Positions 1 through 64,000 of a DNA stretch of 64,000 nt are shown here, piece after piece. The translations under genes were made by a program, and so were the position numbers. The DNA lies in contig JAULBX010025275.1 in assembly GCA_032358255.1 (NCBI GenBank), forward strand, positions 124,001-188,000. The letters run 5' to 3'. The DNA is from Heterotrichella gracilis. Taxonomy: Eukaryota; Sar; Xanthophyceae; Tribonematales; Xanthonemataceae. The notes beneath the pieces were generated by a model. It worked only from the letters and a program-made list of their open reading frames with translations, made no database searches and was not told where the DNA came from. Position 1 is the stretch's first letter. Each line of letters opens with the position of its first letter.

Positions 1-2976
1 GCACTTCCCACCCCCGCACCGTTTTCTTCACAAACTCCTCCCCTGTGCCCAAGTTGAGCCCGATGCCGGTCACGTCATACTTTTGCATGGCGGCAAACTC
101 AGCGGGTGTGATGAAGCGCGTGTAGGGGTCCCTCAGGCCCTTGGCAATCATCTCACGCACCACCCTACAGGGGGAGTGGGGGGTGTATGAGGGGAGGACG
201 GGGGGGGCGCACGCATGGAGTGAGGAGGGGATGGTTGCGATGAGCTGTTGGTACAAACGGAGTTTTTTAGAGTAAATTATGTTTTTTAGAGTAAATTATG
301 TTTTTTGGAGTAAATTATGTTGGCACAGGTGCGTGGTTCTGCATTGCGGTGAAGCTGTCGGCCATTAGCGTTGCCGATTCAGGGTGTAGCATAGCAGAGC
401 TTTAGGATGCTGTTAGGGTTTCAGACTCACTTGTACACCGTCCCCTTTGTCTTGATGGGCTGCGCCAGCGCCTCTTCCCTTAGGGCCTCCCAGCGCCTCC
501 GGTCCCACCCGGCGCCCCGCACATCTGTGAAGTTGTCTGCCACCACCTCCCACACCTCCTGTATAAGCTCTCGCGCGTCTGACTGCAGGTCGACGCCCTG
601 TGGGGGGCGAGGGGCTGGAGTGGGGTGGGGAGGGAGAAAGGTGGGAGATGAAGTGGGGGGTGGATAGGGGTGAGGGCAGGAGAGGAGGGCAAGGGGGTCT
701 ATACTAGAAAATGGAGGGAGGGCGGGGCTCCGCAGAGGGACCTTGGGTGGTGGGGGTGCAGGGAAAACCAGTGGAAGGGTGGAAAAAGCCAAGTTTGAGG
801 CATGCAAGGAGGAAAAATAGAGGTGGCGTGTGAGGGGAAGGCGTGTTGCACCAACCCCCACCACCCCCACCTCCTGAATTGACAGCTCGATCCATCCCTC
901 CCTTGCGCCTTGAATGTGGCTGGCAGGGGGGGGAGGGGATGAGGCCTGCACAAGGGGAGAATGGGGGGAGACGAGCAGAGGTGGTGGGCTGGCTTTAGTG
1001 GTCACTAGGTAAATCTCAGTGGTTTGTGCGCACCATGGTGCCTCCCATTACCTCTGCCAAATTCTTGTACATATGCATAAATCTTAAGTTTCCCAGAATT
1101 TGAGTGACACAAGGGTATTGGTGAAAAATTTATTGTAGTGGCACGTTCCAGCGATTTGGCCCATGCGATTTACAGCCTTACGAGTGACACGTCTCTAATA
1201 CAGAAGCTATAAATAAACATACTTGCCAATTGATTAATTATATAGTGGCACATCCCAGCGGTTTGGCCCATGTACGCACCGTTTTCCCTCCCGTTGCCTC
1301 TATGGAGAAGGGCGCATTGTCTGTTAGGGTCTGCATGGCGGACCCAACCCTGAGCTCAAACCCTCGTAGGGTTTGCAGCAGCTCATCCTCGAAGGCAGAG
1401 GAAATGGAAGCTTCCTCGTGGGAGTGGGTCCTGTGGGGGGTGGAGGTGGGTTGGGGAGGGACGTTGGAGGGGGAAGTGGGTGGTATTGGCGGGAGAGGGG
1501 TTGGGACTGTGGGGATGGGCGGGTTGAGGTAGGGGGGGGAGAATGCATCAAGGTGAAGGAGGAGGGCAAGCGTAAGCATGACACAGAGGATGGAAGGGGG
1601 TGCAAGTTTCCTGGTGGAGGAGGTCCAATAGAGGGGTGTTGGAGGTGGGTGAAATTGGGTGGGTAGGTTGGGAACACATCAAACCTTGGCCAGAAGCTGG
1701 GGTGAGACATACCCGGTCATGCTACCCTAGCTGGTGGCTGAAACCCACATGGGCATGCATGTGATCAGCCGCACCAGCATTGTCACAAAATGGAAGGACT
1801 CCCCCAGTGCACCACCATGTCCCCACCCCTCTTGCCCGTTATCTTGGGCCACCTCTGAATTGGGGCCCCAAGTACCACCCATGCGCGCATGTGGCAGTTA
1901 CCCGCTCCCCTCACCCCCCACAACCGCACCAAAACCCACCTGTCATATAGCGCAGCCTCGTTGGGGGGTGGCAGGGGGGGTAGAGCAGCAGCCAGCACAG
2001 GGGAGGAGGTGGTGGCGAGGGCCAGCAGGGCGGCGCACCCTAGGGTTTTCGTTAGGGATTCCAGGGACGGCCGGTGGCAGGTGTGGGCAAGGTTCCTCCA
2101 TAGAGCGGCGGTGTGGCGCGTGGCGGGGGTGGGGGGTGGTGCGAGGTGGGTGAGGAGGTGGGTGAGGAGGGTGCGGAGGGAAGCCTGGAGGGGTGGGTGG
2201 TGGGTGTGGTGGAGTGGGTGGGTGGGGGACAAGATGGACGTGCAAGGGTTGTCAGGGTTTTGTGAGAAGCGCGTGACTGACTGGCTGAGTCGCTACAAAA
2301 TATGGGGTCTGTGCGAGGGGGCGCAAGCACGTGTGCGGATGCTGCAGCTCGACCCTAAACCCTAAACCCTACCCTTGCACCAGTGTACACAATACGGGCA
2401 GTAGGTCGCTCCTACCCAGGCGGCAGAGGGTTCAGGTTGTGTGAAGGTTTGCAGAAGGGAGCAGGCACCGACACTACAATAGCTAGAAATGGCCAAGTTT
2501 ATCTGAAAATGGTTTAGGTTTTGGACTGGCTGACGTGGTTCTGGTGGCTAGGGGTGGTGGGTGGGTGCAGCAAGCGAAAGGGTGTGGTGGACTGCGAAGC
2601 TGGAAGTGTATGGACAAGGTTCTCTGCAGCTAAGTTGTTTCAGAAGAGCGGCTACAGTTTAATCCAACTACTAGGGTTTCACGGCGCTAGCCGAGTCCAT
2701 GCACACGTTGAACCACACTACCGTGCCGCCGCAGGGTACGCTTACCTTAGGCGGGTCTGGAGTGGTTAGGACAAGGGCGTGCTTGAAAGGCAGCCCCGTG
2801 CGCGCTGTAGGGGTGCTGCTGGCGTGCCTTGTGCAGTGGCTGGATCGTGACTGGAGTTTGAGCTTGTGGGTAATGGCGGGAGCGAACAGCCCTGCCGTCA
2901 GGGAGTTTTTGCACACGCAGAAGCTGACGGGGCGCAGGTTGTCCATGGCAGGCGGGCTGTGGCGAGTTGTGGACAT
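1..2976 (-). CDS. ctpA: C-terminal processing peptidase CtpA (D1-processing protease family), 5' part
   Basis: In the photosynthetic family, CtpA trims the C-terminal tail of photosystem II protein D1 in the thylakoid lumen. Exons, read right to left: 2976-2746, 2184-1940, 1430-1280, 597-431, and 164 to about 20 or beyond the window; all phases agree. The first two exons give a two-part targeting region: a Ser/Thr/Arg-rich stretch, then a hydrophobic segment (AALLALATTSSPVLAAA) ending in an Ala-rich lumenal cleavage-like site. The diagnostic family sequence follows: ELIQEVWEVVADNF, then LRDPYTRFITPAEFAAM and YDVTGIGLNLGT. The PDZ domain and the catalytic Ser/Lys lie off the window, so activity cannot be judged. 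The start at 2976 gives an uninterrupted 77-codon first exon with a good donor (AAG|GTAAGC). The last exon may end at 20 (ACG|GTGCGG). Confidence 0.88.
262..318. repeat. 19-bp tandem repeat, 3 copies
   Basis: Three AT-rich head-to-tail copies of a 19-bp unit (GTTTTTTAGAGTAAATTAT, third copy with one change) lie in the ctpA intron between 165 and 430. The unit is unlike the GC-rich surroundings. Confidence 0.9.
1137..1272. repeat. Direct repeat beside the ctpA exon 3 donor
   Basis: About 30 bp at 1137-1166 recurs at 1243-1272 with a few changes (core TTTGGCCCATG). The second copy abuts the exon 3 splice donor at 1279, so the intron start has been copied about 106 bp further into the intron. 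Confidence 0.75.
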
Positions 2977-4003
2977 GTGTGGGTGAACGGCTGTTTATGC
3001 GAGGGTGCGGCCGGTCGCATATGTGGGCGCATATGCATGCATGCGGGCGTAAAGCACCGTCGTAAGTGACTGTCGTTGTCTTTTGACTACGAAGCAGCAA
3101 CTTAATGCTAGGGTTGGAACCAAAACAAAGTGCTCATCAGCTTTACAAGGTTTATGCACTTGTGCGAACGTGAAGGCAAATAAGGAAAAGTGGTGCCATT
3201 TGTGTAACTCAAATATAAAAAAAAAAGTCACAATAAAAATGTCGCTAACATTCCTTCAAAGCCAACCTGTACCCCAGGGTCCACCGCCATTTCACGTTGC
3301 AAGTTCACTTTTGTACCCGGTGCAAACATTAAGGAAGACCTTGACCTTAGGCAGAGGGTACAAAAGTGGACTTGCAAAGTCAGAGGGTGATGGATCATGG
3401 CCCATGGCATGGGATACAAGGTTGAAGCATCACTGCTTGTGGGCAAATGAAAACTAGCAGCTTCACAGCTGTACAGCCACAGCACTTAATTGTCAGCAAG
3501 TCTGTGGTCTCTTCATGGTTCTGTAAAGATTTGGGACCCAATGCAATGGCGTGGATGGCGCCCTGAACCCGCAAGTGCGCCATGCATTGAACCCGCAACT
3601 CCACATTGCTTCTGCTAAGCAAGCACAGACAATAGCATACCCCGACTGGAAAGAAAAACTTACAGCAACAAAGCATTGGTGTACAAAAAGTGACCGATTT
3701 AAGAAAAATACAGCTGCAGTGGGAGCCAGCACGTTGCACAAAATAAAGGCACAACTCCCCTTACAACGAGATTTGTACCTTTAGTTTGTTCACGCTTGCT
3801 GGCACCTACTGCAGCTGTATTTCACCGAGATCGGTCACTCAATAAGAAACACAGGTATACCTACAGGCGTTCTGGTGGATGCAGGGGTAACAACTCACCC
3901 GACTTCTGGGGCACAGTGTAACACAGCCTGACCACAAGCCAACCGCCCCCTATTCATGCTGGCACCCCTCTAAATAGGCATATGTCGGCATACATATAGT
4001 ATA
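2977..4003. other. Intergenic, no supported gene
   Basis: This lies upstream of ctpA and downstream of the tentative gene at 4004-5482. Short open frames on both strands show no family resemblance. It holds the inverted repeat at 3298-3376 and an ATGC-rich run near 3030. Confidence 0.5.
3298..3376. repeat. Inverted repeat (hairpin), 21-bp arms
   Basis: TGCAAGTTCACTTTTGTACC at about 3298 is matched by its reverse complement ending near 3376 with one mismatch. The spacer is about 37 bp. It could be a small foldback element or a hairpin transcript. Confidence 0.7.
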
Positions 4004-5940: not shown

Positions 5941-8900
5941 ATGGCGGAGCAAAGCAACGACGATAGGGTAGGCAACGCATTGGACCAACTGGCCATCTCA
6001 CGACCCAGCCAACGACCAAAAGAGAGTTACGCGTTCTGGAGCACACAGCCGGTTGCCCAGTTCTCTGAAGCGGGCGCTGCAGAAGAGGTAGTTGCAGGGA
6101 GTTGGGGCGGCACGGCGCATATGCATGTATGAAGGCTGCTGAAATGCATATGCATGCATGCATGCATCAGTGCATGCATCGTTGTTTGCAGCCAGAAACG
6201 CAGTCATACTCTTAGCGCCCAACACCGACAAATATACGGTAAAGTAAGTTCCAGTCCTGGGAGAAAAGGGGAGTGTGGAGGTCAAGGAGACTGAATTGTG
6301 GCACACAGTGCATGCAGTATGATCTAGTTGCACACACTCCAGCCAGAGTATACAGCCACCCTGCATATATCCGACCAGGGAAGTCCAGTAGAAAGACACA
6401 TCCCCTGGATGTTGAGGGGTCCCAGAAAGGTGTCTGCACGCGTCCCGTGTGCTGCATGGCCCATGCACTTGGCAAGTAGTTCAACTCTCCCTGCATGACG
6501 CAGCACGCCCTTGGCTGGCACTTCACCACGCCTCAGCTTGTGTTTCAACTCACCATGCCCTTCGGATGTGATTTACTCTCCATCCCCACCCCTGATTAGC
6601 TGCAGCGTGCTGTGTATATACAAGCCAATTCGAGAACAAAGTCCGATTGTGGCACTTGCGTGCACGTTGCACCATCTGGTTGACCACATTCCAGCCAGAA
6701 TAGCAATCACCCGTGCACAGTGACAATACTACTACTTGTGGGGAACGCATAGGTTGTCTGCCGAGTAAACCCAGAACGGCAGTTGCACAAGTCTCGCATC
6801 CTTTTTCTGGTCGTGCCCTTCGCGTGTGGGTTAACAACCCCCTCCCTGCCTGGGTTGCCTGCAGGATGGTCCCATCGACAAGCCCAAGACTGTAGAGGAG
6901 GTCAGGCAGGAGCCCTATGGCCTGACTGCGAGGTGCGCATACCCACATGAGCTTGACCCCCTTCTGTGTGAGCCTCCTGCCTGTACCCTCGCGCATTCTC
7001 GACGTAACCAACCTGTGCCTTCACTACCCTGCACATTGCCGTCTCTTTTCACTGCCTGGAGTATTTAATCATATAAGTTGGGCACACTACCCTGCACGTT
7101 GCTGTCCCTTTGCACTACCTGGAGCATTCAGTCATTTGCATAAATATCAAGCATTTTAAACATATGTACTGCCTACACTACCCTGCACGTTGCCATCCTA
7201 TTTCACTCCGTGGGGTCCCTGCCAGATTATGTCTGTAACGCTTGTTAGTACCTGCCTGCTATAGCTTTGCACCCCCGACCCATGTACCTGATGTTGGGCC
7301 TGTGTCGCAGCTTTGAGTGGTGTGAGTGCGACATGACGGACGAGGCCACCGTGAAAGAGGTACCACTGCACGCCAGTAACCCTAGTGTACCCTAAACCCT
7401 AAACCACCCAAATCCCTTCCATAAATCCTGTTACGAAAGGGGTGCTGCTGCATGCCAACGGCTTGGGGCGTGCGTGTTGATATCGCTTGCCACAAGTGGT
7501 CCTGGTGTAGGGTTTAGGGTTCATGGGCTCCAGCACACCAGCGCTGGTATTGACCGGATGACCCTAATTCACACCCAACCGCATACCTTATCACGACTTC
7601 TATCGCACACTTCGCCACAAACCATGCTGCAAACCTTGCACCAAACCCTGACGCAAACCCTAAAAACCCTATCTCAGGCCCTACCCCTGGCGCAGGTGTA
7701 CACGCTGCTGAGCCTCAACTATGTGGAGGATGAGGACGCCATGTTCAGGTAAGGGTTTTGGGGTAGAACCCTAAGCTGTGACTCTAAACCTGCAGAGAAT
7801 CCCTGCCGTTTGCACCTGGGCACCGAAGCGAGTTGCTGCTTTTTGCGCGCTTCTGTCTGGAAACATGTCTCGATTCTGTGCCAATTTCTGGCATCAAATT
7901 TTGTGAAAGCTAACCGGTGGACGTCCAATCCCTAGTCGATGCCTCCCATCCCCGCTCGTAGCATGCATAGAAACATGGAACGGCAATGATGAGCTGTAAT
8001 CCTCACAATAAAACCAACTCAAACCGTGCCCAGGAGCCCTAAACCCTACACCTTCCCCTCCCCAGATTTGACTACTCCCCCGCCTTTTTGAGGTGGGCGC
8101 CCCAGCCCCCTTAGGGTACCTGAGCGGCACATGGCTTACCTTAAAACCCTTAAACCTCCCCTCCCCAGGTTTGACTATTCCCCCGCGTTCCTGAGGTGGG
8201 CGCTCCAGCCCCCAGGCTACCGGCGCGAGTGGCACGTGGGGGTGCGGGTGGCGGGTGGTGGGAAGCTGGTGGGATTCATTGGGGCCACCCCCGCTACCCT
8301 AAGGGCCAATGCCAATGTGGTGGAGATGGTTGAGATCAACTTCCTGTGTGTGCACAAGAAGCTGCGTGCCAAGCGGCTGGCCCCGGTGCTCATCAAGGTG
8401 CGGGTTGGTGTGTGAACCTGGGGTGCATTATCCTAGCTAGGGGTTTGGTGTTGTGCGCCGATTGGCTAGCTCCGGTGCTCATCAAGGTGCGGGGTGGTGT
8501 GTGATTCCTAGGTGCATTACTCTAATGGAGCCTGGTGCGTGAGCCCTAGGTGATATACCTAGCTAAGGCCGAGGTCCAGCACCCTTCCTAGGGTTCTTGT
8601 GTGCACACAAGAAGCTGCGCGCTAAGCAGCGGCCCCAGGGCTCATTCAGGCGTGAGTTGGTGTGTGAACCCTAGGCACATTACCCTAGCTAGTTTCTTGG
8701 TGTGTACACAAGAAGCTGCTCGCCAAGTGGGACATTTCCCTGCTGCTTATCAAGGTAAGGGCTTTATCACTGGCGCGTCAATTCACAGTTTGCAACAATT
8801 GGTGGGGGCCCACAAACCTGATTACACTCCTCAACAATTCCCCACCACCTTGTCCTACCGTTCCCTTCGCAGGAGATTACCCGCCGAGTCAACCTGTGCA

Positions 8901-10629
8901 ACATCTGGCAGGCCGCCTACACCGCCGGCGTGGTCCTCCCCAAGCCCATCGCCACCTGCCAGTACTACCACCGGCCCCTCAACCCTAAGAAGCTGATTGG
9001 GGTGGGGTTCTCGCGCCTGCAGCCGCGTATGACCATGGCGCGCACCATCAAGCTGTACAAGTTGGCTGAGGAGCCACAAATCCCCGGGATCCGGCCAATG
9101 GAGGATGCGGATGTGCCGCAGGTGTGGGGGCGGTGTAGGGATTTGGGTGTGAGGCTCCAGGCTTAGGGTTTGGTGTGGTGTGCACGGTGCACTCCACTTG
9201 GTGGGGGGGGGGCTCTTTCCATTCCTCTAAAGTTTTAGGGATTTGCAGTAATATAATGTAATAAGAATATAAATACACTAAATATACTTGTAAGCCTTCC
9301 ACCCCCAATGGCGCAGGTCCAGCAGCTCCTGTCCACCTACCTGTCCCAATTCCGCATGGCCCCCTTGCTGTCTGAGGAGGAGGTGAGGCACTGGCTCACG
9401 CCTGTCAAGGACGTCATAGCAACATACGTGGTGCCGGACAAAGGTACGCACAACAAAGGCTGGGGTCAGTACCCTAGAACAAAACCCTAAACCCTAGGAT
9501 CAAACTAGCGACGCACGCCTGTGAAGGTCGTCATCGCAACATACGTGGTGCCAGGCAAAGGTACGCACAAGAGATGCCGAGTCAGTACCCTAGACCAAAA
9601 CCCTAGGGAAGACACTGGATCATGCCCGTCAAGGACGTCATAACAACATACGTGGTGCCCAACAAAGGTACGCACAAAAAAATACTCTAGACCAAATTCC
9701 TCAGATATACTGGCGCACGCCTGTCGAGGATGTCATAGCAACATACGTGGTGCCGGATAAAGGTACGCACAAACAAATGCTGCGTCAGTGAGTGAGTGAG
9801 CAAGAACGTGCATTTCAGCTGGGTCAGTACCCTAGCCCAAATCCTAAACCCTAGGAAGTTACTGGCTCAAAAGGGCGTCATTGCAACATACGTGGTGCCG
9901 GACCTGTACGAGAAGGATTTACATGTACCCTCATGCCCCAAAGGGTCGAAATTATAGGGTTTCTGCACACCCATATCTAGCTCCACAGGTTGGCGTATCT
10001 CCTGCCTCTAAAGAAAAAGAATAAGAACGAGTACCGTCCGCGGCTTGAAACCCATCGCTTTTTCACGCCTACACCCCCCTGTCCCCTGCAGATGGCACCC
10101 TCACAGACATGGTTAGCTTCTACACGCTGCCATCCACGGTGCTGGGCAACGACCAGTACAACTCGCTCAAGGTGGGTGGCCAACTGTACGAATGTCCATA
10201 TTACCCGTGCCCTCATAGGTGATATGGGTTTGATTGTGTAAGACCAAGATGGTTGCCTGAAATGCCCGTACATATACTCAAATCCACGTCCATAAAGACA
10301 AAACCCTTCTGTAGTCACTGCCCTCGTACCCTTCCCATGTGGCAGATACATTTTATGAGTCCCCATCCCCGATCCCATCCCCGCAGGCCGCCTACATGTT
10401 CTACACCGTCCCCAACGAGCAGCCGCTCCTGAAGCTGATGACCGACGCACTCATCCTGGCGCGCAACCAGGGCCACGACGTGTACAATGCGCTGGACATC
10501 TTGGAAAATTCGACGGTGATCAAGGACCTCAAGTTCGGTCCCGGGGACGGCCACCTGCGCTACTATTTGTACAACTGGCGGGTGGCCAAGGAGATGGTGG
10601 CAGGGGAGGTGGGGCTGATCATGCTGTGA
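5941..10629 (+). CDS. NMT1: Glycylpeptide N-tetradecanoyltransferase (N-myristoyltransferase)
   Basis: Transfers myristate from myristoyl-CoA to N-terminal glycines of cytosolic proteins. There are nine exons: 5941-6087, 6865-6932, 7311-7359, 7696-7748, 8169-8397, 8873-9121, 9317-9443, 10092-10171 and 10387-10629. Every phase agrees, giving 414 aa, the usual NMT length. Family landmarks appear in order: [129 protein letters not shown] and the C-terminal [12 protein letters not shown]. The chain ends GLIML at the C-terminal carboxylate that NMTs use as catalytic base. The start follows an in-frame, uninterrupted first exon. Introns 4, 5 and 7 hold decayed copies of neighbouring exon ends. Confidence 0.97.
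8051..8133 (+). repeat. Decayed copy of the NMT exon 5 acceptor and 5' end
   Basis: This stretch matches the true acceptor plus exon 5 start at about 8155-8239, including the CCCCTCCCCAG tract and the TTTGACTA-CCCCCGC-GAGGTGGGCGC sequence. It has indels and lies about 105 bp upstream in intron 4. Confidence 0.92.
8457..8758 (+). repeat. Three decayed copies of the NMT exon 5 donor region
   Basis: About 8457-8502 repeats CCGGTGCTCATCAAGGTGCGG plus the following intron bases. About 8597-8669 and 8693-8758 repeat the earlier exon part (TGTGCACACAAGAAGCTGCG) and run into CATTCAGGCGTGAG and TATCAAGGTAAG. Real junction: 8397/8398. The copies include intron sequence and keep donor-like sites. Confidence 0.92.
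9389..9910 (+). repeat. Five-unit tandem array built on the NMT exon 7 donor
   Basis: Units start near 9389 (the real exon end), 9508, 9611, 9709 and 9860. Each carries GTCAAGGACGTCATAGCAAC / ATACGTGGTGCC. The first four also carry AAAGGTACGCAC, so three perfect decoy donors follow the true one at 9444. Between units lie CCCTAAACCCTAGGA-type telomere-like runs. Coding sense survives largely in the copies. Confidence 0.95.
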
Positions 10630-42660: not shown

Positions 42661-42774
42661 CTTCACAACCAGAATCCATTGTATATGGGCAAAATCACGC
42701 CCCGGGCTTGCTCAGCCCCTGTTACCGCATCATCACTCCATAACCCCCCTCGCAATCTTCTTGGGAGGGCACAA

Positions 42775-51332: not shown

Positions 51333-54300
51333 TCACGTGAAGGCATAGAAGCCCATGATGTTGCCCGCGGCAGCACCCGCCACCAGCCACCAGCATCCCT
51401 TGATGCTTACGGGGAAGTGCAGCATCTTGGCCGCCACCCCCAGCCCCCACACCAGGGGCAGCAGCGCCTGCGCCAGCGACGCCACCGCCAGCAGCAGGTT
51501 GATGTGCGCCAGCTCCTCAAACAGGCGCGCCATGCCACTCTTGTGGCCCAGGCCCTCCAGCAGGTGCTTGATGTCGCTGCCTGCAGGGGAGGATGGCTTG
51601 GATCAATGTGTGATTTAGGACACGTTTAAGCGAAGGGTAGGGTTGAGGAGCGCAGGGATCACTGCTGCCTGTGAGGGTTTGAGTTAGGGTTTTGTTTGAC
51701 ATGCGCCAGCTCCTCAAACAGGCGCGCCATACCATTCTTGTGACCCAGGCCCTCCAAGAGATGCTTGATGTCGCTGCCTGCAGGGGCGGGGGGCAGGGGG
51801 GGGGGTTGGGGTAATGTGTGAGCTTAGGGTTGAGGCGCATAGTGCTGCTGACTGTGAGGGTTTGGATTAGGGTTTGGATTGATGCTGCTGCCTGCAAGCT
51901 CCTCAAAGAGGTTTGATGTGCGGCAGACCCTCTACCCTAAGCCCCTTACTTCTTGCTACCTACCACTCCCAAATAAGGGAATTAGGGCTTCAATTTCAAA
52001 CAACAACATTTTTTTTGCCTCTCTGTTGCTGGGCCCCTAAATTCTAGCACGTACCATCTGTGTTGATCATCTTCTCAAAAGTCCTGGCCGCCCTGATGAG
52101 GATGGCGGCCACCAACACATAGTCGATCAGGTGGTAGATCTCGCTGAGCGCAGTTGCGGTGTGGCCCTGCAGGTACTCGGCAGCCATCAGCGCCACTGTG
52201 GATACCCCACATGACCACATGGCCATGGCTGAGAAGAACAGGGCTGTCACCACCTCGCGGAAAACCTGCAAAGGGGGAGATTTGAATGTTAAGTCATGGG
52301 TGGGGAGTAGGGCGGATCCAGAGGTGGAATACAATAAACCGGAACTCCTTGTAAGATTCCTACATTACAGTAATGATGGTGGAATGCAGGGTAGCCCCAG
52401 GAGGACTTGAATATGTCACATGATTTTAAGTGCTCCTGGTAGCCCTGGGGCCATGGCCAAATACAGAATAATCTACCAGCAGCACCAACGCACCTGCTCC
52501 TTCACTCGCGTGAACTCATATGTGTGGGATGAATAGGCCCATATTAGACACTCAGTGCACACCACACCTCACAAGCTGGACACCACCCATCCACCCACAC
52601 CACCCACCACCCGCCACTCACCTGCTCCTCCACGCGCGTGAACTCATAGGTGGGCGCAAAGGTCTCCCCCGCACCGTGCCTGGCCAGGCGCGCAGCCAGC
52701 ACCTGGCGCCCCCTGCTGTTGTAGGGCATGGCAGTGCGCGGCTGCGGGTGGAGGGGAGGTGCGGGCTCCCCGTTCCGCTCCCTGCTGATGTCGCGCGCTG
52801 ACACCAGCTGGTACACGATCTGTGGCATGGGGGCAGCGGGATTAGGGTTTAGGGTTGAAGGGCGAATGGGGAGAAACTATGGACTGTCGCAAACCCTAAA
52901 CCTCACCTTCGTGTACAGCCTCACCCAAATGGTTCGCCCACCACCTCACCCACTCACCCACTGCCCTCCGGGGTGCAAAACACGGTTCTGCCTCCCACCC
53001 CCCACCCACTGCCTCACCTGCGTCCCAAACTCTGCAAGCCTTATGTGGTGATGGCCATGCGCAGGGGTAATGGCAGGCGAAGCAAGCAGGCGACACAGCG
53101 CCTTCCCCACACCCATAACCCTGTTACCAATGGTCCCACCAAAAGTGCTTCAGACTTTTTGCATCACATTATTTACCATCCCCCCCCCACCCCCTGCCTC
53201 ACCTGCGTGCCAAACACGGGTGCGCCTACTGTGATGATGGCCATGCGCAGGGGTGAGGGCAGGCGGAACAGCGCCTCCAGCAACCCTGGTGAGCGCCACA
53301 GCAGCAAGCGGCAGGCGGTGACAACTGACAGCACACCCTGCAGGGGGGAGGATGATATTAGGTGATGCAGAGGGTGGGTTAGCGGGTATTGAGGGGGTGA
53401 GTGGTGCTGCATGGAAGATGGTCAGCATTGCAGATATGATCCGTTTGATTTGGCTGACAGTGCTTGAAAACATGAGCAGCAATGGGAGTCCCTCAAGCGT
53501 ATGCGCACACACCACCACCACCACCACCACCACCCACCGCTCTGTGCTTCCACCCCGCCCCACATACAACACATACCTGAGCGCAACCCACCCCACCTTG
53601 CTGAAGTAGGCTGCAATTAGGGATTTGCTGTTTAGAGTTTATGGGTTTAGGGCTTTACCGCAATGAAGAAGGCTGTATTGGGCCACAGCGCCGCTGCGGT
53701 TGCCATCTGCAGCACCGCCACCGCCGTGGTATTGATGCCCACCTCCTGGATACCCTTGGTGAGGGCTTGGAGGCCCTCCATCAGGTTGTCGATGTCGCGG
53801 CCTGGGGGTCAATGGGCGGCAGTTACTTCTTGCCGGGTGTGCAGGGTGTGCTTTGTTTGCTTGCAAGGGCTGTCATGCAAGGCATCACATGTATGGAACG
53901 GGGAATCCAATGCGGGCCCTGCTCTGCCCCAGGGGTGGGCACCCCAGCCGGAGGAAGGCGCAAAAACCCTAGGGCACCCCAGCCCGGGGACGGCACAAAA
54001 GGCCTTCTTTTCACGCGGCCACCATGGGGAGGCACCTCACGTCACGGGCGAGCAAGGACAGGGTTTACACCAATAGGTTAGGGTCTCATTAGGGTTTTTC
54101 CAAGAGGCTTTTCCTCTTGCCTTGGGTGGTGTACACCAGCCTGAAGGAGCGGGAGGATGCGAAGATGAGGAAGGCGCAGAATGCCTTGTTGACGCAGGAG
54201 GCCACCATGGGGAAGCTCTTCACGCCCAGTGAGAAGCCGCCTCGCACCATGGTGATGCACACCTCGGCCAGGGCAGCCACCGCAATGGCAAACCCTGCGC

Positions 54301-54833
54301 GGGTCATCTCCTGCTCCAGGGCCTTGAACACGTGCTCCTCCTCCTGCAAAACCATTCTTTTATCACTATTTGTATTCCTATAATCTACCCGCCTATGAAT
54401 ACTCCTGTAATTGATAAAAAAAATGATTTCTTTTCATATTGTAATTTTGAAAACAGTGCAACTGCGTTGTTATCACATTCTAAAAGACAAATAAATAAGT
54501 AGATTACTGTATTATATGAATAGTAAAAATAGGGAATAAATCAACTTGCTGAGGCTACCACCATACCTCATTGAACTCATATTGTGAGGGAGGGGCCACG
54601 TCAAACTTGAGGTCCGACCAGATGGTGCTGGCATCGCTGCTGGTGGCACTGCGGCAGCGCACGCGGCGGGGGGGCCAAGAGGGCAAGTGGGGCGGGGGGA
54701 CTGGGGAGGGCGGCTGGGGCACGAGTGGCGGCCGGGTGCGTGTGGTGTGGTGGGTGTGCCAACCTGTGCGCCTGATGTGGGGCCGGAGGGTGGTGGTGGG
54801 GTGGTGGTGCTGTGCGAGGATGGTGGGTGGCAT
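51333..54833 (-). CDS. Multi-pass membrane protein, plastid-targeting leader, unknown family (gene A)
   Basis: Not recognised. Seven in-phase exons (54833-54567, 54343-54121, 53801-53659, 53337-53203, 52819-52622, 52265-52055, 51580-51333) give 474 aa. The leader (MPPTILAQHHHPTTTLRPHI...VRCRSATS) looks like a plastid transit peptide ending before acidic sequence. About six hydrophobic spans follow. The protein has two related halves, each beginning YEF-x-x-EE-x-VF (YEFNEEEEHVFKALEQ; YEFTRVEEQVFREVV). Each half has DI-x-x-L-x-EGL after a phase-1 intron (GRDIDNLMEGLQAL; GSDIKHLLEGLGHK). The exon 2 donor is GC (CAAG|GCAAGAGG), where gene B has GT. Tandem paralog of gene B at 56689-60869. Confidence 0.85.
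51690..51792 (-). repeat. Copy of the gene A exon 7 acceptor and 5' end
   Basis: Gene-sense CTGCAG|GCAGCGACATCAAGC ATCTCTTGGAGGGCCTGGGT CACAAGAATGGTATGGCGCG CCTGTTTGAGGAGCTGGCGC AT repeats the true exon start at 51580 with few changes. It lies 200 bp upstream and includes a working-looking acceptor. Confidence 0.97.
52490..52537 (-). repeat. Copy of the gene A exon 5 donor region
   Basis: Plus-strand CACCTGCTCCTTCACTCGCG TGAACTCATATGTG matches the real CACCTGCTCCTCCACGCGCG TGAACTCATAGGTG at 52619-52652. Confidence 0.93.
52985..53100 (-). repeat. Copy of the gene A exon 4 donor region
   Basis: Plus-strand CTGCCTCACCTGCGTCCCAA AC ... GTGATGGCCATGCGCAGGGG TAATGGCAGGCG matches 53194-53265 of the real exon 4 end and donor. 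Confidence 0.93.
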
Positions 54834-56688
54834 GGTGCCGAGTGTGGGGTGCTGCTGGTTGATCCCTTGTGGGCCCACGCCGACTGGTTGGCCCAAATTT
54901 GGGTAGTACAGCAGTGGCGCGTGGTGTCTTGTTGGGTGGCGGCTGGTGCCTAGTGGAATGCAGGGCCGTATGGACCTCGCTGTCTTGCTAAGACAGCCTT
55001 CAAAGGCTTGGTGTGGAGTTCATCCAAACCTTGGACACTGGAGGCCACCAGCACTGAAAACCAAGGCTGAACTCCTTGCGGCTATGTCCAGTTGCGTGGA
55101 AGAGGGGTAAGGGTGCCTGCGGTACCACCAAGTTGGAAGGGGGTGAGGCACAGCCCAGAAGCAGTTCAAACCATGCCCAGCGACAGCTGAAACCATGGGA
55201 GTGGTGGGGGAGTTGTGGTGCAGTTCCAGTATGGTTGTTGTACCCCTGGGCTGTCTGGGCAACTAAAGCTGCGAGACCAGATTCGGCACCACGTTCCAGA
55301 AATAAAAAAAGGGCACAACATCGTGTTGAACAACGGGATCCCCTCCAATGCCTACCAATGCTTTCTGTATGACTTCACAGGTTTCCAACAGCGCGTGATT
55401 TCACTGCTTCAAACAAAGTGAACAGGCTCAGAGTGCAACAGGAAAACCTACGCCCCATCCGAGGGGTTTCCCACGCACCAATCGGGCCGCTGCGAGGAAG
55501 GGTGCAATTTGGACCCTTTTGCATGCCATTTGATTGCTGGGGAGTGGCAAACTTTTCTCAACAACGGTGCAGTGTAGGGGCGATGTGCAGGCTCGTTACA
55601 TGTTACTTACCTACCCAGTTCGATTGCAGCAAGAAAACCCCCGTGGGTCGTTAGAAACCGACGGACGGCAGTGAGTAAAGTCCAGTGTTGGGCGAGACGA
55701 AGGACATGCGGTTTGCACGATTGCACCGCCTAGAAAGCCTTCTTCTCACTGAAACTCGCTCCAACAGGTAGAGATCAGCCTTTGAACATACTACTAGGCT
55801 TTGTACAGCTGAAAGCAGCTTTTACTAGCTGCCTTGACAAAGCAATTGGACTGTGTCCGAGACGCAAAGTCAAATGTGGAGGCTCCCAACAAATTAGACC
55901 ATCCAAGGTAAGCTGTAGAGCGTTAGTGCCTAGCTTTATTCAACAAGAACCTTTTTTGGGCAATAAGGATACGCTTGGCGCAGTCTTGTTCATACCAGGG
56001 GAGAACACATTTTGTGCCCCCATCTGTTGCACGACTTGCCACGAGACCACTCGTCAGATGGCACGTGTCGGGGATCAGCAAACCAGATGGGGATTAACAA
56101 AAACATTTACAAACCCAGAAATCGTCCAAATCACACCCAATGGCCTGGGACTTTACACACCAGGGCTCCCCATCCCCTCTGGTGCAACAATGCCCCCTCC
56201 CCACAACATTCCCATGCGCCTAGGCACCCTTCCCCCCCTCTTTCCATGCAGGGGCAGCATCATCAAGCACGCATATGTACCATGGCTGCTGCTCGTGCAT
56301 CTGCGCAGTATGGAATTCGACGCCATATTCACCGCTATATCAAGACTAACTTGCTGGCTAAGAGTAACACCAACACCCCTTTCCCTAATTTACAGTCTTC
56401 TAGTTATCAAGGTTGCATGGACCCTGTGACCCCACAAAACAATTAATAACATCACTCCCAGGAAATAAATTAAACCAGCATTGCCACGCTACGCCTTCTT
56501 CTGGTGGGACAGCAATTTCCAGGATGCAGCGCCCGCCACCACACACCACACAGCGGTGATGGTGACCTGGAAGGGCAGGCCACGTTGACCTCTACCCCTG
56601 TCTCCCCAAGGGGAGCAAAGGCTGCGCTGGCGCCACCACATACCCCCCAGGGATCCCTACCGACCCCACACGCATATTCCCAGCCACG
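54834..56688. other. Intergenic between gene A and gene B
   Basis: No supported gene. An open frame at 55782-56429 (+) has no family resemblance, and a second frame overlaps it from 56012. The right end holds the gene B terminal-exon copy at 56485-56590. Confidence 0.5.
56485..56590 (-). repeat. Copy of the gene B terminal exon beyond its stop
   Basis: About 100 bp repeat the end of gene B including the stop region. Plus-strand GCCACGCTACGCCTTCTTCT GGTGGGACAGCA ... CGCCCGCCACCACACACCAC AC matches GCCACGCTAGGCCTTCTTCT GGTAGAATGACAGCA at 56683-56717 and onward. Confidence 0.97.
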
Positions 56689-59600
56689 CTAGGCCTTCTT
56701 CTGGTAGAATGACAGCAGGTTCCAGGAGGCAGCCCCCGCCACCACACACCACACCGCGGTGATGCTGACCTGGAAGGGCAGGATGGAGGCCACCTGGGCC
56801 GCCACCCCCGTCTTCCAAAGCAGGGGCAGCGCCACCTGCATGACCGCCAGCCCCGCCAGCAGCAGGTTGATTTGTGCCAGCTCCTCGAAAAGCTTGGCCA
56901 AGCCGCTCTGGTGGCCCAGCCCCTCCACCAGGATCTTGATGTCGTTGCCTGCAGGCGGGTGGCAATGGGTTTTGAGTGAGGGGTTTGGTGTCTGTTGTCA
57001 GCACCAGCAAGGCTTTGCAGGTAGGGATTGAGGTGGGGGGTAGCCACAACGGGGCAAGTGATTGTGAGCCTGTAACGGCAACGAGGGTAGGGTTGGAATG
57101 GGGATGTGCTCCATGGCCACGAGGCATTGTGGGTGGGGTTTACCGGGTAAACTTTACCCCCTTGAGGACTATCCTATATTTCATGCATAGAACACCCCAC
57201 ACTCTGCCACGCGCCCGCACCATCAGTGTTGGTGATTTTCTCAAAAGTCCTTGCCATTCGGATGAGGATGGAAGCCACCAGCACGTAATCAATCAGGTGA
57301 TAGATCTCGCTGATGTCGCCTAAAATACTGAATCAGATACCGAAATCTGCTGTGCTGTGGCAAATCTATACCTCATGCTCCCTAGAACATCCCCCGTCCC
57401 CGCCACTCGCCCGCACCATCAGTGTTGATTATTTTCTCAAAGGTCCTTGCCGCCCGGATGAGGATGGACGCCACCAGCACATAGTCGATCAGGTGGTGGA
57501 TCTCGCTGAGGGCGGTTGTGGCGTGGCCATGCATCATCTCCGCAGTCATTAGGGTAACCACCGACACCCCGCAGGACCACATCGCCATGGCTGAGAAGAA
57601 CAGGGTGGTGATCACCTCGCGGAAAATCTGCAGGGGGGGGGAAAGGGGGAGCGTTGTTTATATACAGGAATAGGGGTGGGGGCGCCCTACAACCTCTGTA
57701 TAGCCATGGCAAAGGAACGTGCAGAGGTGAAAGGGTAGAGTGGGCAAAAATTGGGAGATTTCATGGCGCAATTGTTAATACCCCAAATGACCACATGGCC
57801 ATGGCCGAAAAATAAAGGGTGGTGATCACCTCCCTGAAGACCTGCACCGGATTGGAGTGCGGGTGGTGGGTGGACGGGTTAAGCAGAGGTGAGGAACGGG
57901 AGGTGAGGTTGGGCAAAGGATGTTGGGGCAAAGGTACGAGCGGGGTATTTGCAGATATACGACTTGCAAAATTAATTGCTGGAGTGCATGTAAGTAGCTA
58001 ACTAGCATGACACAATGACACGAAACAAAACATGTCACCATCATGTCTCTTACTATGACAAGATTCCATGGCCCGGTGAGGGTATTTCTCCGGCGCACGC
58101 ACCTGTTCCTCCACCCGGTTGAACTCATAGCCGCATGCAGGTACATGCACACACCAAAAGACATAAGCAACTCCATTCCAGGAATTGTTTCAAGGAAAAG
58201 CTTGTGCCATTTCTCGATTTCATAAAAGGCCAAATCCCGCGGCCTGGTGAGGGTTCCCTGCTTGCGCCCGGACCTGTTCCTCCACGCGATTGAACTCATA
58301 GCCGCAGGGGGGCTCAGCCGCCAACTCAGCTGTGGTGGGCTTGGGGGCGAAGGCTGCGGGTTCCTCCCCCTTGCGCTTCCTGGCGATGTCATCCGCTGAT
58401 ACCAGGCGGAACACAATCTGTGGGGGGTGGCACAGGTGTTAGTAGATGTCGCAGGAACCGGGGGTAACATAGTGCTTCCTGGTATATAAACTCACACCCC
58501 TGGTGGTGGTGGAAAGTGTTTTTTTCTGGGGGGGGGGAGGCAGGCAGAAAGGTGTCAATTACCGAGCACAACTAATGGGGGTATCACATGTTAGAAGAGC
58601 TCCATCTGAACCCGTCACATCTTCACCCATATCCCCCACCCCACATATTCCCCCCCATTGCCCACCCGTACCCACCCCACCCCACCCCCTCCATTCACTT
58701 CCTCACCTGTGTGCCAAACACTGGCGCCCCCACTGTGATGATGGCCATGCGCAGGGGGTGGGGCAGGCGGAACAGCACATTGAGCACCCCTGGGAAGCGC
58801 CACAGCAGCAGGCGGCAGGTGGTCACAACCGTCAGCACGCCCTGTGGGGAGAAGAGATCAAGGGGTGGAGGGTGGTGGTGGTGCATGGGAGAGCATCAGT
58901 AATACACATATCCCTGTGAAATCAGCTGATATTGCTTGATGGACAGGGGCAGGGCAGGCTGAACAGCATGTTGAGCACCCCTGGGAAGCGCCACAGCAGC
59001 AATATAGATTGGGCACAATGCGCCGGAGTGGACACCTGCAGCACCCCAACCATGGCCAGGGTCTACAGGCATTCGGGTTCATGGGTATGAGGGTTTAGGG
59101 TTTTACCGCTATGAAGAACGGTGTGTGGCGCCACAGCACAGCCGCGGTAGTCAGCTGCAGCACAGCCACCACTGTGGTGTTGTTGCCCACCTCCTGAATA
59201 CCCTTGGTGAGGGCTTGGAGGCCCTCCATCAGGTTGTCGATGTCGCGGCCTGGGGAGAAGAAACTGGGGATCAGGGTTTAAGGCTTATAACCCATATTGA
59301 TGGATCCTACCTAATTTGAAGTAGAATAGCGGGTACTCATTATTCTTACCATTACTCTTTATTTGAAGTATAATATGTCATGGCGAGAACCTCTCTAGGT
59401 TCTCTTATGTCGAGTACACGAGCCTGCTGGAATTTACGAAGGCAAGTTTGATTAGGACTTTTACAAGGTGTCTTAGGGTTCTCCCCTCCCACCTGTGGTT
59501 GTGTACACCAGCTTGAAGTATTTGCCAAAGAAATTAAGGGTTTCGTGTCCCAACAGGGTTTCTTAGGGGGTCTCCCTTCCCACCTGTGGTTGTGTACACC

Positions 59601-60869
59601 AGCTTGAAGTAGCGCGAGGCGGCAAAGATGAGGAAGCCGCAGAATGCCTTGTTGAGGCACGATGCCAGCATTGGGAAGCTGTGCACAGTCACGTTGGGCC
59701 CATGGCGCACCAGGCTCACACCCACCTGGACCAGGGATGTATGACAGAGCATTATTTCCAGTGTGTGATGATGAAATGGCAGCGGGGTTTTATACTCGGC
59801 AAAGATGCAAGTCCATCGGTAGAATTTCAAGGAAAAGGGATGATTTTAAAACGGGGAAGCTGCGCACGGTCACATGGGAGCTACAATCTACTTGACAAGA
59901 AAATGGCACATTTCATTAATTCAAACATTTAAACATTTGAAAAGGAATTGAATAAGAACCATCCTGGATGCTAACTAGGCAGAGATGAATGCTGGATTGC
60001 ATAGTCATGTATTCTGACGGTCACACCCATGCTGGCCCCTGCACTCACCCTGACCATTGCGGCCAGTGCGATGGCAAACCCCGCGCGCCCCATCTCGTGC
60101 TCCAGGCTCTTGAACACATGCTCCTCCTCCTGCATAAAAAGTAAACATTATTATTATTATGATAATTTATCTATCGTAGCTCTTCTGCACGGCCCTTCTC
60201 CAGCTTCTCGACACATGCTCCTCCTCTTGCAAAATGACAATTGCATGTTGCTTTGTTATTTATGACTCTAGCAGGGATTACGCTGCCGCTGGTGGCGTAG
60301 GTGATGTGTTTCGGAGCGAAGATTCGTGCGGTGGGGTGGTGGACTGGTGCGGTGGTGGTTGTAGGTGCCTGGGGTGCAGGGTGCGGATTCACTGCATTGG
60401 TGAGTGCCCGACCGTGGTGTGGTGTGGCGCTGCATCACCATCTCCCAGCTCCCCATCTTGCTGAACTCATATTGGCTGAGAGGTGCCACATCATCCTGAA
60501 CCCTAAACCCTAGACCCTCCCCTCCCCTTGTCCACCTCTTCTGCCTTGTCATAGTCATTGTCCCTTCCCTACCTTGCTGAACTCATACTGGCTAGGAGCT
60601 GCCACGTCATCACCGAGCAGTGCCAAATCAATGGTTCCTGCGTCGCCAGTGATGGTACCAACAGCCGCGCTGCGGCACACATGGCGCAGGGGGCGGGGGT
60701 GGGGGCGGAGGGCGCCGGGGGTGGCATGGAGTGGGTGGAAAGCTGGGTTTTTCTGTGGTAGCACCAAAGGTGTGTGCCTAGCCTGGCATCTGACAGTGCT
60801 CCTGGAGTGGGTTCTGAGGGCAGTGGTCCGCTGGGGGTAGTGGTGCTGTGGGAGGGTGGCGGGTGGCAT
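56689..60869 (-). CDS. Multi-pass membrane protein, plastid-targeting leader, unknown family (gene B)
   Basis: Tandem paralog of gene A. Eight in-phase exons (60869-60573, 60129-60049, 59725-59584, 59249-59107, 58841-58707, 58417-58274, 57627-57417, 56948-56689) give 470 aa. The leader (MPPATLPQHHYPQRTTALRT ... HVCRSAA) parallels that of gene A. The two-half structure is the same: YEFSKEEEHVFKSLE then GRDIDNLMEGLQALTKGIQE; YEFNRVEEQIFREVITTLFF then GNDIKILVEGLGHQSGLAKL. One intron (60048-59726) splits sequence that is a single exon in gene A, so it was gained here or lost there. The exon 6 donor is weak (CAG|GTCCGG), while an echo 185 bp downstream offers a better one (CAG|GTGCGT). Function unknown; plastid envelope or thylakoid location is inferred from the leader. 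Confidence 0.85.
57195..57312 (-). repeat. Copy of the gene B exon 7 end
   Basis: About 110 bp repeat the exon 7 end and donor (plus-strand CGCACCATCAGTGTTGGTGA TTTTCTCAAAAGTCCTTGCC ... ATGAGGATGGAAGCCACCAG CAC), matching 57413-57520. Coding sense is largely kept. Confidence 0.97.
57780..57846 (-). repeat. Copy of the gene B exon 7 acceptor and start
   Basis: Plus-strand GACCACATGGCCATGGCCGA AAAATAAAGGGTGGTGATCA CCTCCCTGAAGACCTGCA matches GACCACATCGCCATGGCTGA GAAGAACAGGGTGGTGATCA CCTCGCGGAAAATCTGCA at 57577-57632. Confidence 0.96.
58060..58140 (-). repeat. Copy of the gene B exon 6 donor region
   Basis: Plus-strand GGTGAGGGTATTTCTCCGGC GCACGCACCTGTTCCTCCAC CCGGTTGAACTCATAGCCGC A matches 58246-58306 of the real exon 6 end. 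The copied donor (CAG|GTGCGTGCG) is a better consensus than the real one. Confidence 0.96.
58940..59010 (-). repeat. Copy of the gene B exon 5 interior
   Basis: Plus-strand GGCTGAACAGCATGTTGAGC ACCCCTGGGAAGCGCCACAG CAGCA matches GGCGGAACAGCACATTGAGC ACCCCTGGGAAGCGCCACAG CAGCA at 58767-58811. Confidence 0.96.
59475..59525 (-). repeat. Copy of the gene B exon 3 donor region
   Basis: Plus-strand CCCACCTGTGGTTGTGTACA CCAGCTTGAAGTA is exactly repeated at 59488-59520 and 59579-59611. The flank TTAGGGTTCTCCCCTCCCAC resembles TTAGGGGGTCTCCCTTCCCA C before the original. Confidence 0.97.
60438..60500 (-). repeat. Copy of the gene B exon 1 donor region
   Basis: Plus-strand CATCTTGCTGAACTCATATT GGCTGAGAGGTGCCACATCA TC matches TACCTTGCTGAACTCATACT GGCTAGGAGCTGCCACGTCA TC at 60570-60611. 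CCTGAACCCTAAACCCTAGA CCC follows directly, so a telomere-like run lies between copy and original. Confidence 0.96.
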
Positions 60870-60932: not shown

Positions 60933-60970
<38 letters not shown>

Positions 60971-62113: not shown

Positions 62114-63824
62114 ATGTCGGCGTCCTTGCGGAACGCCTTTAAGCGGAAAACACACAAAGAAAGGGCGCAACCGTAAGTGGCGGATACTCAACCTTAATGC
62201 TGGAGTCGGTGCCAGGCTTACATACGGCTTCCCAGCTGTGCCGTGCACCTAGTTACATATACCGCCATGGCGGGTGCAACCCTCTTTGTGCACACCGGGT
62301 ACCAGTGAAAGGAACAAGCGCTATTTCAGTGGCTAACTACATACACTACTTAGCGTCAAGAGGGCTTGGGCGTCGCAGGCGGCGTTTTTTTTACTGCATG
62401 CTTATATGCATGCATTGGCTGCTGCTGTGACTAAGCGTGCTCCCCGAATATTTGAGGCCAACCCACGCGGGCACCACTTAAGCGTAAAGGAAAAATTTAC
62501 CTTCGCTCATTTCCCACCCCACCGTTGTATCCCTGTGCACCGCACACCCTGCATATGATTGTCCCCAAATATGCCTCACCTGCAGTTAGTAGTACCCCTG
62601 TCCCATACCACAATAGGGCTTTTGACACTACTATAGCAGTAGCCAGCTCATTGGGTGACCTATTCTGTACCACGGGATGCAAGCACACGCCTGGACGAGG
62701 TCCCTGGCCACCCGCAAACCCTAAACCCTAAACCCCATGTGCCCCGCCATGTAGTGCTGCCCGGAGGAAATATGGCCTCCTGGAGAAGAAGAAGGACTAC
62801 CTGCTGCGTGCAAAGGACTTCCACAAGAAGGAGAAGACCATACAGGTGGGTGGCGCACCATGGCGTCGGCCATAAAACCCTAAACGCCAAACACCAAACC
62901 CTAATCACTAGGACAGTTACAAGAACGAGAAGACCACATAGGTGGGTGGTGTAGGCCATGAAACCCCCAAAACTTAAACCAAGGACTTCCATAAGCAGAC
63001 CATATTGGTGGGTGGCATTGGCCATGGAACAGAGCTGAGTGAAGCTGGGAATCGCGCTCGCATGGAATCGCGTGCCTTTGGCAAGTGTGGAACCGCATGC
63101 AGCATGCCTCATGGCCATCGCTGCAGAGCCCATGATTTCGAGTGCCGTTCTGGAATGCATGTATCCTGGGGCGCTGGACGTATCCCATTTCCGGAGTGGG
63201 CGCTGGTAGCAGTCCTGTCTCTGCTTCACACACTATAGATTGTTTGTGACAAGTTAGCAGGGTAGGCCTTGCATGCACGCCTTGCGCTTGCATCCTCTTT
63301 CCTGAGACAACTTGCCACTGCAGACGCTGCGGCAAAAAGCAGAGGAGCGCAACCCCGATGAGTTCTACTTTGCTATGGAGAAGTCGCGGACGCGGGGAGG
63401 GGTGCACATTGGAGGGTAAGCATCAGCATTGTTTACCCTGTTTACTGTGGCACAACACCTTGTGGTTTAAGGTTTTGGGCCTGCCCCAGAGGGCTGGTGC
63501 TATTCAGGGTCTGTAGGGTTCACCTTTGACAGTGCTCCTGCACAGCTGTGGCCCATTTCAATGTTCACTTTGGGGTTCAGTTTAGGGTTCAGCCGTGATG
63601 TCTGTTCACGGTTGAGTATGTGAGGGCTGTAAGTAATTGACCCAGGTACATGCTTCTGTTTAGGGGAAAGCAATGACCTCCATGTAGGGTTCTGCTTTTG
63701 ACAGTGGTAAACCCCCTCCCCTTGCAGGCGAGACCACCAGGGAAAGTACACCCAGGACGAGCTGCGGCTAATGAAGACGCAGGACATAAAGTATGTGGCG
63801 CACAAAACGCAAACGGAGGCAAAG
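62114..63824 (+). CDS. UTP11: U3 small nucleolar RNA-associated protein 11 (UTP11), 5' part
   Basis: Nucleolar component of the small-subunit processome for 18S rRNA maturation. Exons 62114-62172, 62755-62845, 63324-63415 and 63728-63824 give the first 113 codons in phase. The family pattern is clear: MSASLRNAFKRKTHKERAQP, then ARRKYGLLEKKKDYLLRAKD FHKKEKTIQ, then LRQKAEERNPDEFYFAMEKS RTRGGVH, then DELRLMKTQDIKYVAHKTQT EAK. The last exon ends at AAG|GTGTGA; reading on would stop immediately, but UTP11 proteins are about twice this length, so the gene should continue past 64000. The start ATG sits in a good context (CCACCATGTC). Confidence 0.92.
62905..63035 (+). repeat. Two decayed copies of the UTP11 exon 2 donor region
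   Basis: The real junction reads CACAAGAAGGAGAAGACCAT ACAG|GTGGGTGGCG. Copies at about 62917-62955 (TACAAGAACGAGAAGACCAC ATAGGTGGGTGG) and 62979-63022 (AAGGACTTCCATAAGCAGAC CATATTGGTGGGTGGC) follow. AAACCCTAAACG and AAACCCTAATC lie between. Confidence 0.95.
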
Positions 63825-64000
63825 GTGTGAGGAAGATTTGGGGGGCAATCCTTGCCGCACCGGCTGCATGATAAAGGGGCAGCATGCATGACCCGTGCTT
63901 TTCCCTTGCCTAATTCCCGTCACAAGTCTCTGAGGTAGAGTATGTCTGCATGTCGCATACTACTGGCAGGTTTGTTGGTGCAAGGTGTCCGGGATGTTTA

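Follow-up and report, generated by a model that had tools for sequence, protein, structure and literature searches.

Direct local echoes of exon ends in introns and 3' flanks of Heterotrichella gracilis genes

The stretch of DNA analysed here (the window, 64,000 nucleotides) covers bases 124001-188000 of contig C277 (GenBank JAULBX010025275.1) in the assembly of the alga Heterotrichella gracilis, which comprises 68.5 Mb in 903 contigs. It encodes NMT, bZIP, AT-hook, hydrolase, ABCG, glutaredoxin and UTP11 genes, protein kinases, BTB-domain frames and the two paralogues called here genes A and B. Partial copies of the genes' own exon ends, which we call echoes, lie nearby in introns or 3' flanks. 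The gene models come from a small gene finder, trained on the genome itself without supervision and without RNA support, which settled on clear splice signals (donor CAG/GTGAGT and acceptor TGCAG/G, the slash marking the splice site). Pfam confirms the BTB, kinase and ABC-transporter exons of these models. By its NMT protein the DNA reads as that of a green alga, the best named matches including Chlorella vulgaris, Coccomyxa viridis, Trebouxia, Micractinium and Myrmecia at 61-65% identity. The names bZIP, AT-hook, hydrolase, glutaredoxin, UTP11, CTP protease and VPS53 are presumed from the sequences. A search against Rfam gave no match.

We compared the window with itself using blastn (word 7, at least 40 bits, direct matches counted at offsets of up to 600 bp) and found 54 raw direct matches, overlapping ones included. 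Within 1500 bp there was no inverted match, or three if self-palindromes are counted, and three shuffles of the window gave neither direct nor inverted matches. The same search of 17 stretches from 17 contigs, C277 among them, gave 85 direct and 11 inverted raw matches. In 252,125 bases, with overlaps and simple repeats removed, we counted 140 direct pairs against 14 inverted matches; exactly one copy was exonic in 103 of the direct pairs, neither in 32 and both in five. A simple-repeat artefact was considered and rejected, the filter having removed only one of 136 raw direct matches (40 bits, offset up to 300 bp). Exon-end echoes are confirmed as real, and the original observation of at least 30 partial local copies in the orientation of their sources holds. 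They were also said to be systematic and to occur in ten named genes. An excess at exon edges is indeed present, but the distribution in the genome is uneven, with zero or one raw direct match in eight of the 17 stretches (two of these eight are short, 4.5 and 1.3 kb). Nine of the genes carry echoes (NMT, bZIP, AT-hook, hydrolase, ABCG, glutaredoxin, A, B and UTP11), but kinase 2 has only a pair lying entirely in an intron (27769-27889, at least 40 bits). One stretch, L006 of contig C100, has a GC content of 0.35 and no local repeats, unlike the rest, and is perhaps organellar or foreign.

Statistics on telomere motifs, intron lengths and edges were computed on a detailed set of 187.9 kb, namely the window with 10 kb added on each side, 30 kb of contig C50 and eight further stretches. 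This set leaves out eight repeat-poor stretches (L006, L007, L008, L013 and L017-L020), which the 252,125-base count includes in repeating the main pair counts. For the exon-edge and later counts, nine short exons that the gene models had placed within echoes were discarded. The detailed set holds 135 non-redundant pairs within 600 bp, and in 126 of them the offset is at most 300 bp, so that source and copy are closely linked. A coding edge lies in one copy of 75 pairs; 25 pairs have one copy wholly in an exon, five have both and 30 (22%) have neither. A null placement at non-disruptive positions, which allows for purifying selection, expects 27% at an edge, 5% with one exonic copy, 0% with both and 68% with neither. 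The excess at coding edges thus held against this null in the sampled 187.9 kb, and it may be understated, since some of the 30 pairs without exon are NMT copies of copies or belong to an ABCG exon predicted in only one of two models. The edges are labelled as 41 donors, 33 acceptors, five stops and two starts, and in 78 of the 81 copies that hold an edge the echo lies on its noncoding side. The positions originally named, at donors, acceptors and stop codons, are therefore recovered by gene models built without supervision. The echoes at stop codons in ABCG, glutaredoxin and gene B suggest that a splice site is not required, but only one of them is young. They cannot serve to prove that the edge is set by selection: by eye, three of nine stop-labelled pairs look like donors truncated by the gene model, and a single one of the other six reaches 88% identity.

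By their pattern of change the echoes resemble dead copies taken from exons. In 97 pairs the mismatch rates at codon positions 1, 2 and 3 are 0.079, 0.090 and 0.186, and the rate in the intron parts is 0.165, a pattern to be expected if the echo drifts freely, positions 1 and 2 of the exon are constrained and both copies drift elsewhere. C>T plus G>A changes number 214 from exon to echo against 104 in reverse. A neutral echo beside a conserved exon speaks both against assembly error and against a coding function. We give next to no chance to an assembly or sequencing artefact, as the divergence has codon-position structure and echoes occur in most sampled contigs and are absent from some contigs of the same assembly. 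The echoes could also be selected elements, for example decoy splice sites, as might be suspected from their density and from the intact splice sites in many of them. However, echo splice dinucleotides have changed in 6 of 83 donors and 3 of 66 acceptors, like other echo positions whose source is constrained, and are not conserved beyond neutral expectation; alignment gaps are multiples of three in length in only 26 of 165. Selection for such elements is very improbable.

Young pairs with one exonic copy (at least 88% identity, n=30) reveal the shape of the copies. Past the coding edge these extend a median of 8.5 bp, against 47.5 bp on the exon side, and in 25 of the 30 the end falls in the interval from 31 bp inside the edge to 20 bp beyond it. 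The copies end abruptly: the flank beyond the exon-internal end is similar in just two of the 30 (at p 0.05), and one pair is identical over 62 bp with differing flanks. The claim that copies continue into the intron is correct in that most carry intron bases, but the young ones carry little of it. Spliced mRNA, which had been ruled out as the template, is indeed excluded for most copies, since 39 of the 46 at donors and 32 of the 42 at acceptors contain at least four intron bases. Fragments of unspliced nascent transcripts around splice sites could instead have been copied into nearby breaks, which would account for the exclusively direct orientation, the nearby source and the composition of the copies (exon end plus splice consensus). 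We hold such RNA-templated insertion to be quite improbable, because donors and acceptors are affected alike (41 and 33), stop codons are affected too, and the insert equals the whole offset rather than the copy.

This last point is supported by the offsets and the intron lengths. Offsets of up to 300 bp are bimodal with means of 103 and 200 (n=126), and none of 100 unimodal bootstraps reached the observed likelihood ratio. Contig C277 alone gives means of 101 and 195 (n=50) and the other loci, an independent half, give 107 and 206 (n=76). When only the 106 loci that do not overlap are taken, the means are 104 and 198. Both sizes are common to donors and acceptors. When the pairs are divided by the ratio of match length to offset (L/D), the two modes are significant for ratios of 0.45-0.7 (n=38) and below 0.45 (58 with an offset of up to 300 bp, p 0.03) and not significant for ratios of at least 0.7 (n=30, p 0.13). 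The median intron measures 268 bp without any pair (n=176) and 432 bp with one exon-derived echo (n=55), and 15 more introns have several echoes. Subtracting the offset from the one-echo introns leaves 277 bp (p 0.83), compared with 328 bp when only the copy is subtracted (p 0.003). In the one-echo introns the slope of length on offset is 1.33 with a standard error of 0.38. For pairs with L/D below 0.45 (n=24) the medians after the two subtractions are 268.5 and 394. These comparisons support insertion of the whole offset, not of the copy alone, with the partial bias that long introns could hold echoes more easily. Genes A and B, used to polarise introns, give mixed results: in one intron pair (474 and 468 bp) the first gene carries an acceptor echo (offset 197) and its paralogue a donor echo (offset 192), and another pair (356 and 646 bp) is left with 228 and 261 bp after subtraction of the offsets. 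The pyrimidine share upstream of echo acceptors is 0.585 against a background of 0.507 (19 pairs, p 0.0025; p 0.058 for the 10 pairs of at least 85% identity), as if the echo sat at an old intron end.

Ordinary tandem duplications of about 100 or 200 bp would insert a whole offset as well. Those inside exons would be purged and the noncoding part of the unit would fade faster because both copies drift, leaving only the exon end visible. The two sharp offset modes whatever the copy length, the intron excess equal to the offset, the 30 of 135 pairs with L/D of at least 0.7 and the similarity that the spacer still shows to the outer flank (23 of 71 separated pairs at p 0.05) all agree with this explanation. 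We simulated it with selection, decay and the same detection, and it gave 44-47% of pairs without exon at all four indel settings, against the observed 22%. With the indel ratio set to 0.1-0.3, the young copies remained at full length (L/D 1.0) and reached 55-71 bp past the edge. Ratios of 0.6-1.0 came nearer to the data (L/D 0.71-0.55, 17-20 bp) and still missed the exon share, and the alignments suggest a ratio of about 0.15 (165 gap runs and 1122 mismatches). In the young pairs themselves the median L/D is 0.42, so that the matches are not as long as their offsets. Tandem duplication is therefore unlikely as the general explanation, and the sample is mixed, with some plain tandem duplications and more patches with an unrelated spacer. 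An alternative hypothesis could be that the duplications are old and that gene conversion from the exon has refreshed the exon-like part while the noncoding flanks faded. A high-identity patch beside weakly similar intron flanks, seen in nine of the 30 young pairs, is consistent with it. By reasoning, conversion should also have refreshed the noncoding parts, because both directions are harmless there, and a length of about 55 bp is small for a converted patch. We consider conversion improbable.

The spacers between source and echo sometimes resemble telomeric DNA. We counted TTTAGGG heptamers in any phase or strand and took the expectation from dinucleotide shuffles. Introns hold 1109 heptamers against 96 expected (about 12-fold), intergenic DNA 176 against 25 and exons 94 against 13. 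A heptamer is present in 137 of 270 model introns (e.g. at window positions 21458-21483 and 43970-43994), and heptamers concentrate within 50 bp of splice sites, in pair-free introns too. Their density is 18.6 per kb in introns with pairs and 7.8 in the others. In the spacers the density reaches 23 per kb, about three times the 7.8 of introns away from pairs, and 41 of 112 spacers contain at least one heptamer. In the last tenth of introns CCCTAAA occurs in the sense orientation only (178 against 0), which splicing alone could impose. The ends that served as source carry a heptamer in 24 of 61 cases, compared with 54 of 342 ends of echo-free introns (p 7e-5). Across 24 windows, with the dropped stretches included and those below 5 kb falling out, echo density tracks the density of telomere clusters outside the pair spans (Spearman 0.74, and 0.67 at fixed intron share). 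These observations are suggestive of a link between echoes and telomere-like sequence. Two spacers were searched for in the assembly as possible filler captured from elsewhere, and both matched only themselves. Separately, an internal segment, L016:866-926, matches telomere-like places in many contigs at 85-90%, and several of the matches lie at the first bases of contigs (C5, C99 and C480).

We tentatively prefer, with a little less than even confidence, a recurrent, neutral, local copy-and-insert repair of staggered breaks near coding edges. A staggered break near a coding edge would leave two ends overlapping by tens of bases, and fill-in would re-copy the exon end together with the splice site or stop codon. 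The ends would then be joined through filler DNA, each event adding about 100 or 200 bp. The gene would survive because one copy still runs into the intact exon, and the second copy would stay in the intron or 3' flank and decay. The data above establish the anatomy of the pairs, the neutrality of the echoes and the direction from exon to intron; we infer that the lesion was a staggered break and that the filler was made in its repair. A local duplication of DNA on the same strand held up against the nulls. The direct orientation, the whole-offset insertion and the mostly unrelated filler make break repair with local re-copying the best-supported family of explanations. Of the two causes first proposed, slippage or templated joining at breaks, the latter is in this respect partly supported, but ordinary slippage fails in simulation as the main source of the exon share. 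Simulated staggered patches gave young pairs an L/D of 0.37-0.47, close to the observed 0.42. We rejected a variant with rescued exon breaks and exponential synthesis tracts, which gave 80-87% of pairs without exon at three simulated settings.

Several results weigh against repair of staggered breaks as stated. Uniform staggered breaks produce 60% of pairs without exon in simulation, against the observed 22%. An exon bias of about 12:1 is needed to lower this to 26%, and the copy then extends a median of 27 bp past the edge rather than 8.5. A copy plus free filler does not predict a bimodal total length. The intron-side flank is weakly similar in the nine young pairs cited above. Some spacers resemble the outer flank in the manner of a tandem duplication, namely 4 of 24 in the young, 13 of 33 in the middle and 6 of 14 in the old class of pairs. 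Among five orthologous intron pairs of genes A and B, subtracting the offsets worsens the fit in two and makes it neither better nor worse in one. No site lacking the insert was observed. Source ends with a heptamer (24 of 61) do not differ significantly from the opposite ends of the same introns (15 of 61, p 0.12). Telomere growth from both broken ends was considered and rejected, as the motif orientation in the spacers does not fit. The coding-edge preference is a real residue that none of the simulated models explains. We speculate that in this algal lineage coding edges may be hot spots of a specific lesion, at which repair would re-copy the exon end and insert a fixed length near 100 or 200 bp, often with telomerase-type filler; introns would then lengthen in steps from their ends and acquire spare splice sites and telomere-like sequence as they do so. 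This extension is possible and, in our judgment, doubtful.

The individual echoes of the window are listed in Table 1.

Table 1. Echoes of exon ends in the window, by gene (window positions; offsets in bp)
Gene	Echo or paired copies	Source or related exon	Strand	Remarks
NMT	acceptor echo 8041-8126	source 8144-8227; start of exon 8169-8397	+	offset 103; 82.6% identity
NMT	echo part 8066-8092		+	wrongly taken as exon by gene model
NMT	8464-8519, 8594-8703, 8700-8756	source 8341-8451; donor of exon 8169-8397	+	self-blastn and gene model
NMT	array, region 9386-9903: ~9514, 9610, 9709-9789, 9871-9903	end of exon 9317-9443	+	telomere-like spacers
bZIP	13148-13209, 13417-13478	exon 13012-13194	-	self-blastn and gene model
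bZIP	14401-14441/14572-14611	exon 13800-14410	-	self-blastn and gene model
bZIP	14640-14733/14828-14922	exon 14856-15072	-	self-blastn and gene model
AT-hook	19083-19171	source 19253-19344; start of exon 19250-19403	+	offset 170
AT-hook	region 20514-20742 (exon end and echoes)	end of exon 20166-20535	+	offsets 107, 202; model exon 20705-20737 removed as echo
Hydrolase	31758-31809	source 31865-31916; exon 31875-32020	-	offset 107
ABCG	34435-34496	end of exon 34225-34351; region 34287-34496	+	offset 148
ABCG	upstream echoes, region 34724-34977 (echoes and exon start)	start of exon 34945-35089	+	offsets 114, 216
ABCG	36940-36979	start of exon 37076-37216; region to 37108	+	offset 129; 90% identity
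ABCG	37139-37620 (exon end and echoes)	end of exon 37076-37216	+	offsets 167, 375
ABCG	39983-40022, 40160-40199	exon 39884-40036	+	offset 177; exon predicted in only one of two models
ABCG	41022-41099	last coding bases and stop, 40812-40890	+	offset 210; 84%; match ends at stop codon
Glutaredoxin	42578-42644 (90%), 42438-42494 (79%)	last coding bases, stop and 9-14 bp of flank, 42761-42836	-	
Glutaredoxin	43284-43379/43559-43654	one end of exon 43582-43719	-	offset 275
Glutaredoxin	43661-43719/43897-43953	other end of exon 43582-43719	-	offset 236
Gene A	51140-51280/51233-51369	at exon 51337-51580	-	offset 93
Gene A	51499-51722/51696-51911	at exon 51337-51580	-	offset 197; fully tandem
Gene A	52488-52524	end of exon 52622-52819; region to 52652	-	offset 128; 89% identity
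Gene A	52995-53079	source 53180-53265; exon 53203-53337	-	offset 185
Gene B	56483-56610	last exon with stop, 56683-56820	-	offset 200
Gene B	57174-57313	source 57366-57509; end of exon 57417-57627	-	offset 192
Gene B	57780-57846	source 57566-57632; start of exon 57417-57627	-	offset 214
Gene B	58070-58135	source 58241-58306; exon 58274-58417	-	offset 171
Gene B	58946-59001	source 58755-58810, ~30 bp inside exon 58707-58841	-	offset 191; 91%
Gene B	59463-59520	end of exon 59584-59725; region to 59611	-	offset 90; 92% identity
Gene B	60450-60495, 60566-60611	near first modelled exon	-	offset 116
UTP11	62919-62949	source 62823-62853; end of exon 62755-62845	+	offset 96; 90%; CCCTAAA-like spacer

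The exons of genes A and B are about 75-88% identical, yet most of their echoes lie at different places, so that the events seem younger than the gene duplication. The two genes also differ in a single 223-bp exon of gene A (54121-54343), which corresponds to two exons of 142 and 81 bp in gene B (59584-60129) split by a 323-bp intron, a clean presence/absence difference of an intron between paralogues. Units of echo plus spacer have been multiplied into short arrays in L015:5649-5956, in L005:2794-2999 (contig C50) and in the NMT array of Table 1, and in these arrays the spacer is as similar as the exon part. Other features of the window are two tandem protein kinase paralogues (23247-24812 and 26672-28594) and two long minus-strand open frames with BTB domains, also tandem paralogues (45969-47231 and 48766-49908), the second of which contains a perfect 12-bp tandem repeat of 3.8 copies (48860-48905).

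How introns lengthen is poorly known. In the detailed set, exon-derived echoes occur in 70 introns, and 176 introns have no pair at all. Every echo records a step of growth that can be dated, with an internal neutral clock (codon positions 1 and 2 against 3). The edge preference and the two insert sizes are testable signatures of a lesion or of a repair step, for which simulated selection and decay do not account.

Patch-mediated repair is known in rice, and paired-nick duplications are known in plants; both resemble the echoes in duplicating tens of bases directly from staggered ends. Judging by titles and the beginnings of abstracts, we recognised no paper on exon-end echoes in algae, which is weak evidence of absence. 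The following comparisons draw on parts of the cited papers. Repair-mediated duplications in vertebrates are short, local, neutral and close to the break, with filler and microhomology and sometimes with pieces of exons or splice sites (Pace et al. 2009, PMC2671141), and the algal echoes are likewise short, local, neutral copies. In the portion of that work used here, partial exon/intron donors make up four of 824 cases and one exon copy is inverted, whereas the algal pairs mostly hold an exon end and have two-moded offsets; the count in the alga takes direct pairs by definition, and inverted ones are a tenth as frequent. In horse and human, telomeric repeats have been inserted at staggered breaks with direct duplication of the flanks (PMC7215372), which resembles the telomere-like filler and the direct flanking duplication seen here. 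The loci described in those passages are few and carry telomeric arrays, whereas the alga has degenerate motifs, with a full heptamer in the 41 of 112 spacers given above, tied to coding edges.

Fill-in of 3' overhangs by Pol alpha-primase gives small tandem duplications (PMC8355091) that are, like the echoes, direct, tens of bases long and derived from staggered ends; filler of the algal size and a coding-edge preference are not met in the passages of that paper compared here. Introners create introns, and many of their families have target duplications of 3-9 bp or inverted repeats (PMC9860276). Like the echoes, they are insertions linked to gene structure, and they are found in algae as well as in other eukaryotes. 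On the excerpted account they differ in that echoes lengthen existing introns, and the only two spacers tested were both unique in the assembly. Relative to known repair duplications, the coding-edge preference, the density and the two sizes are new.

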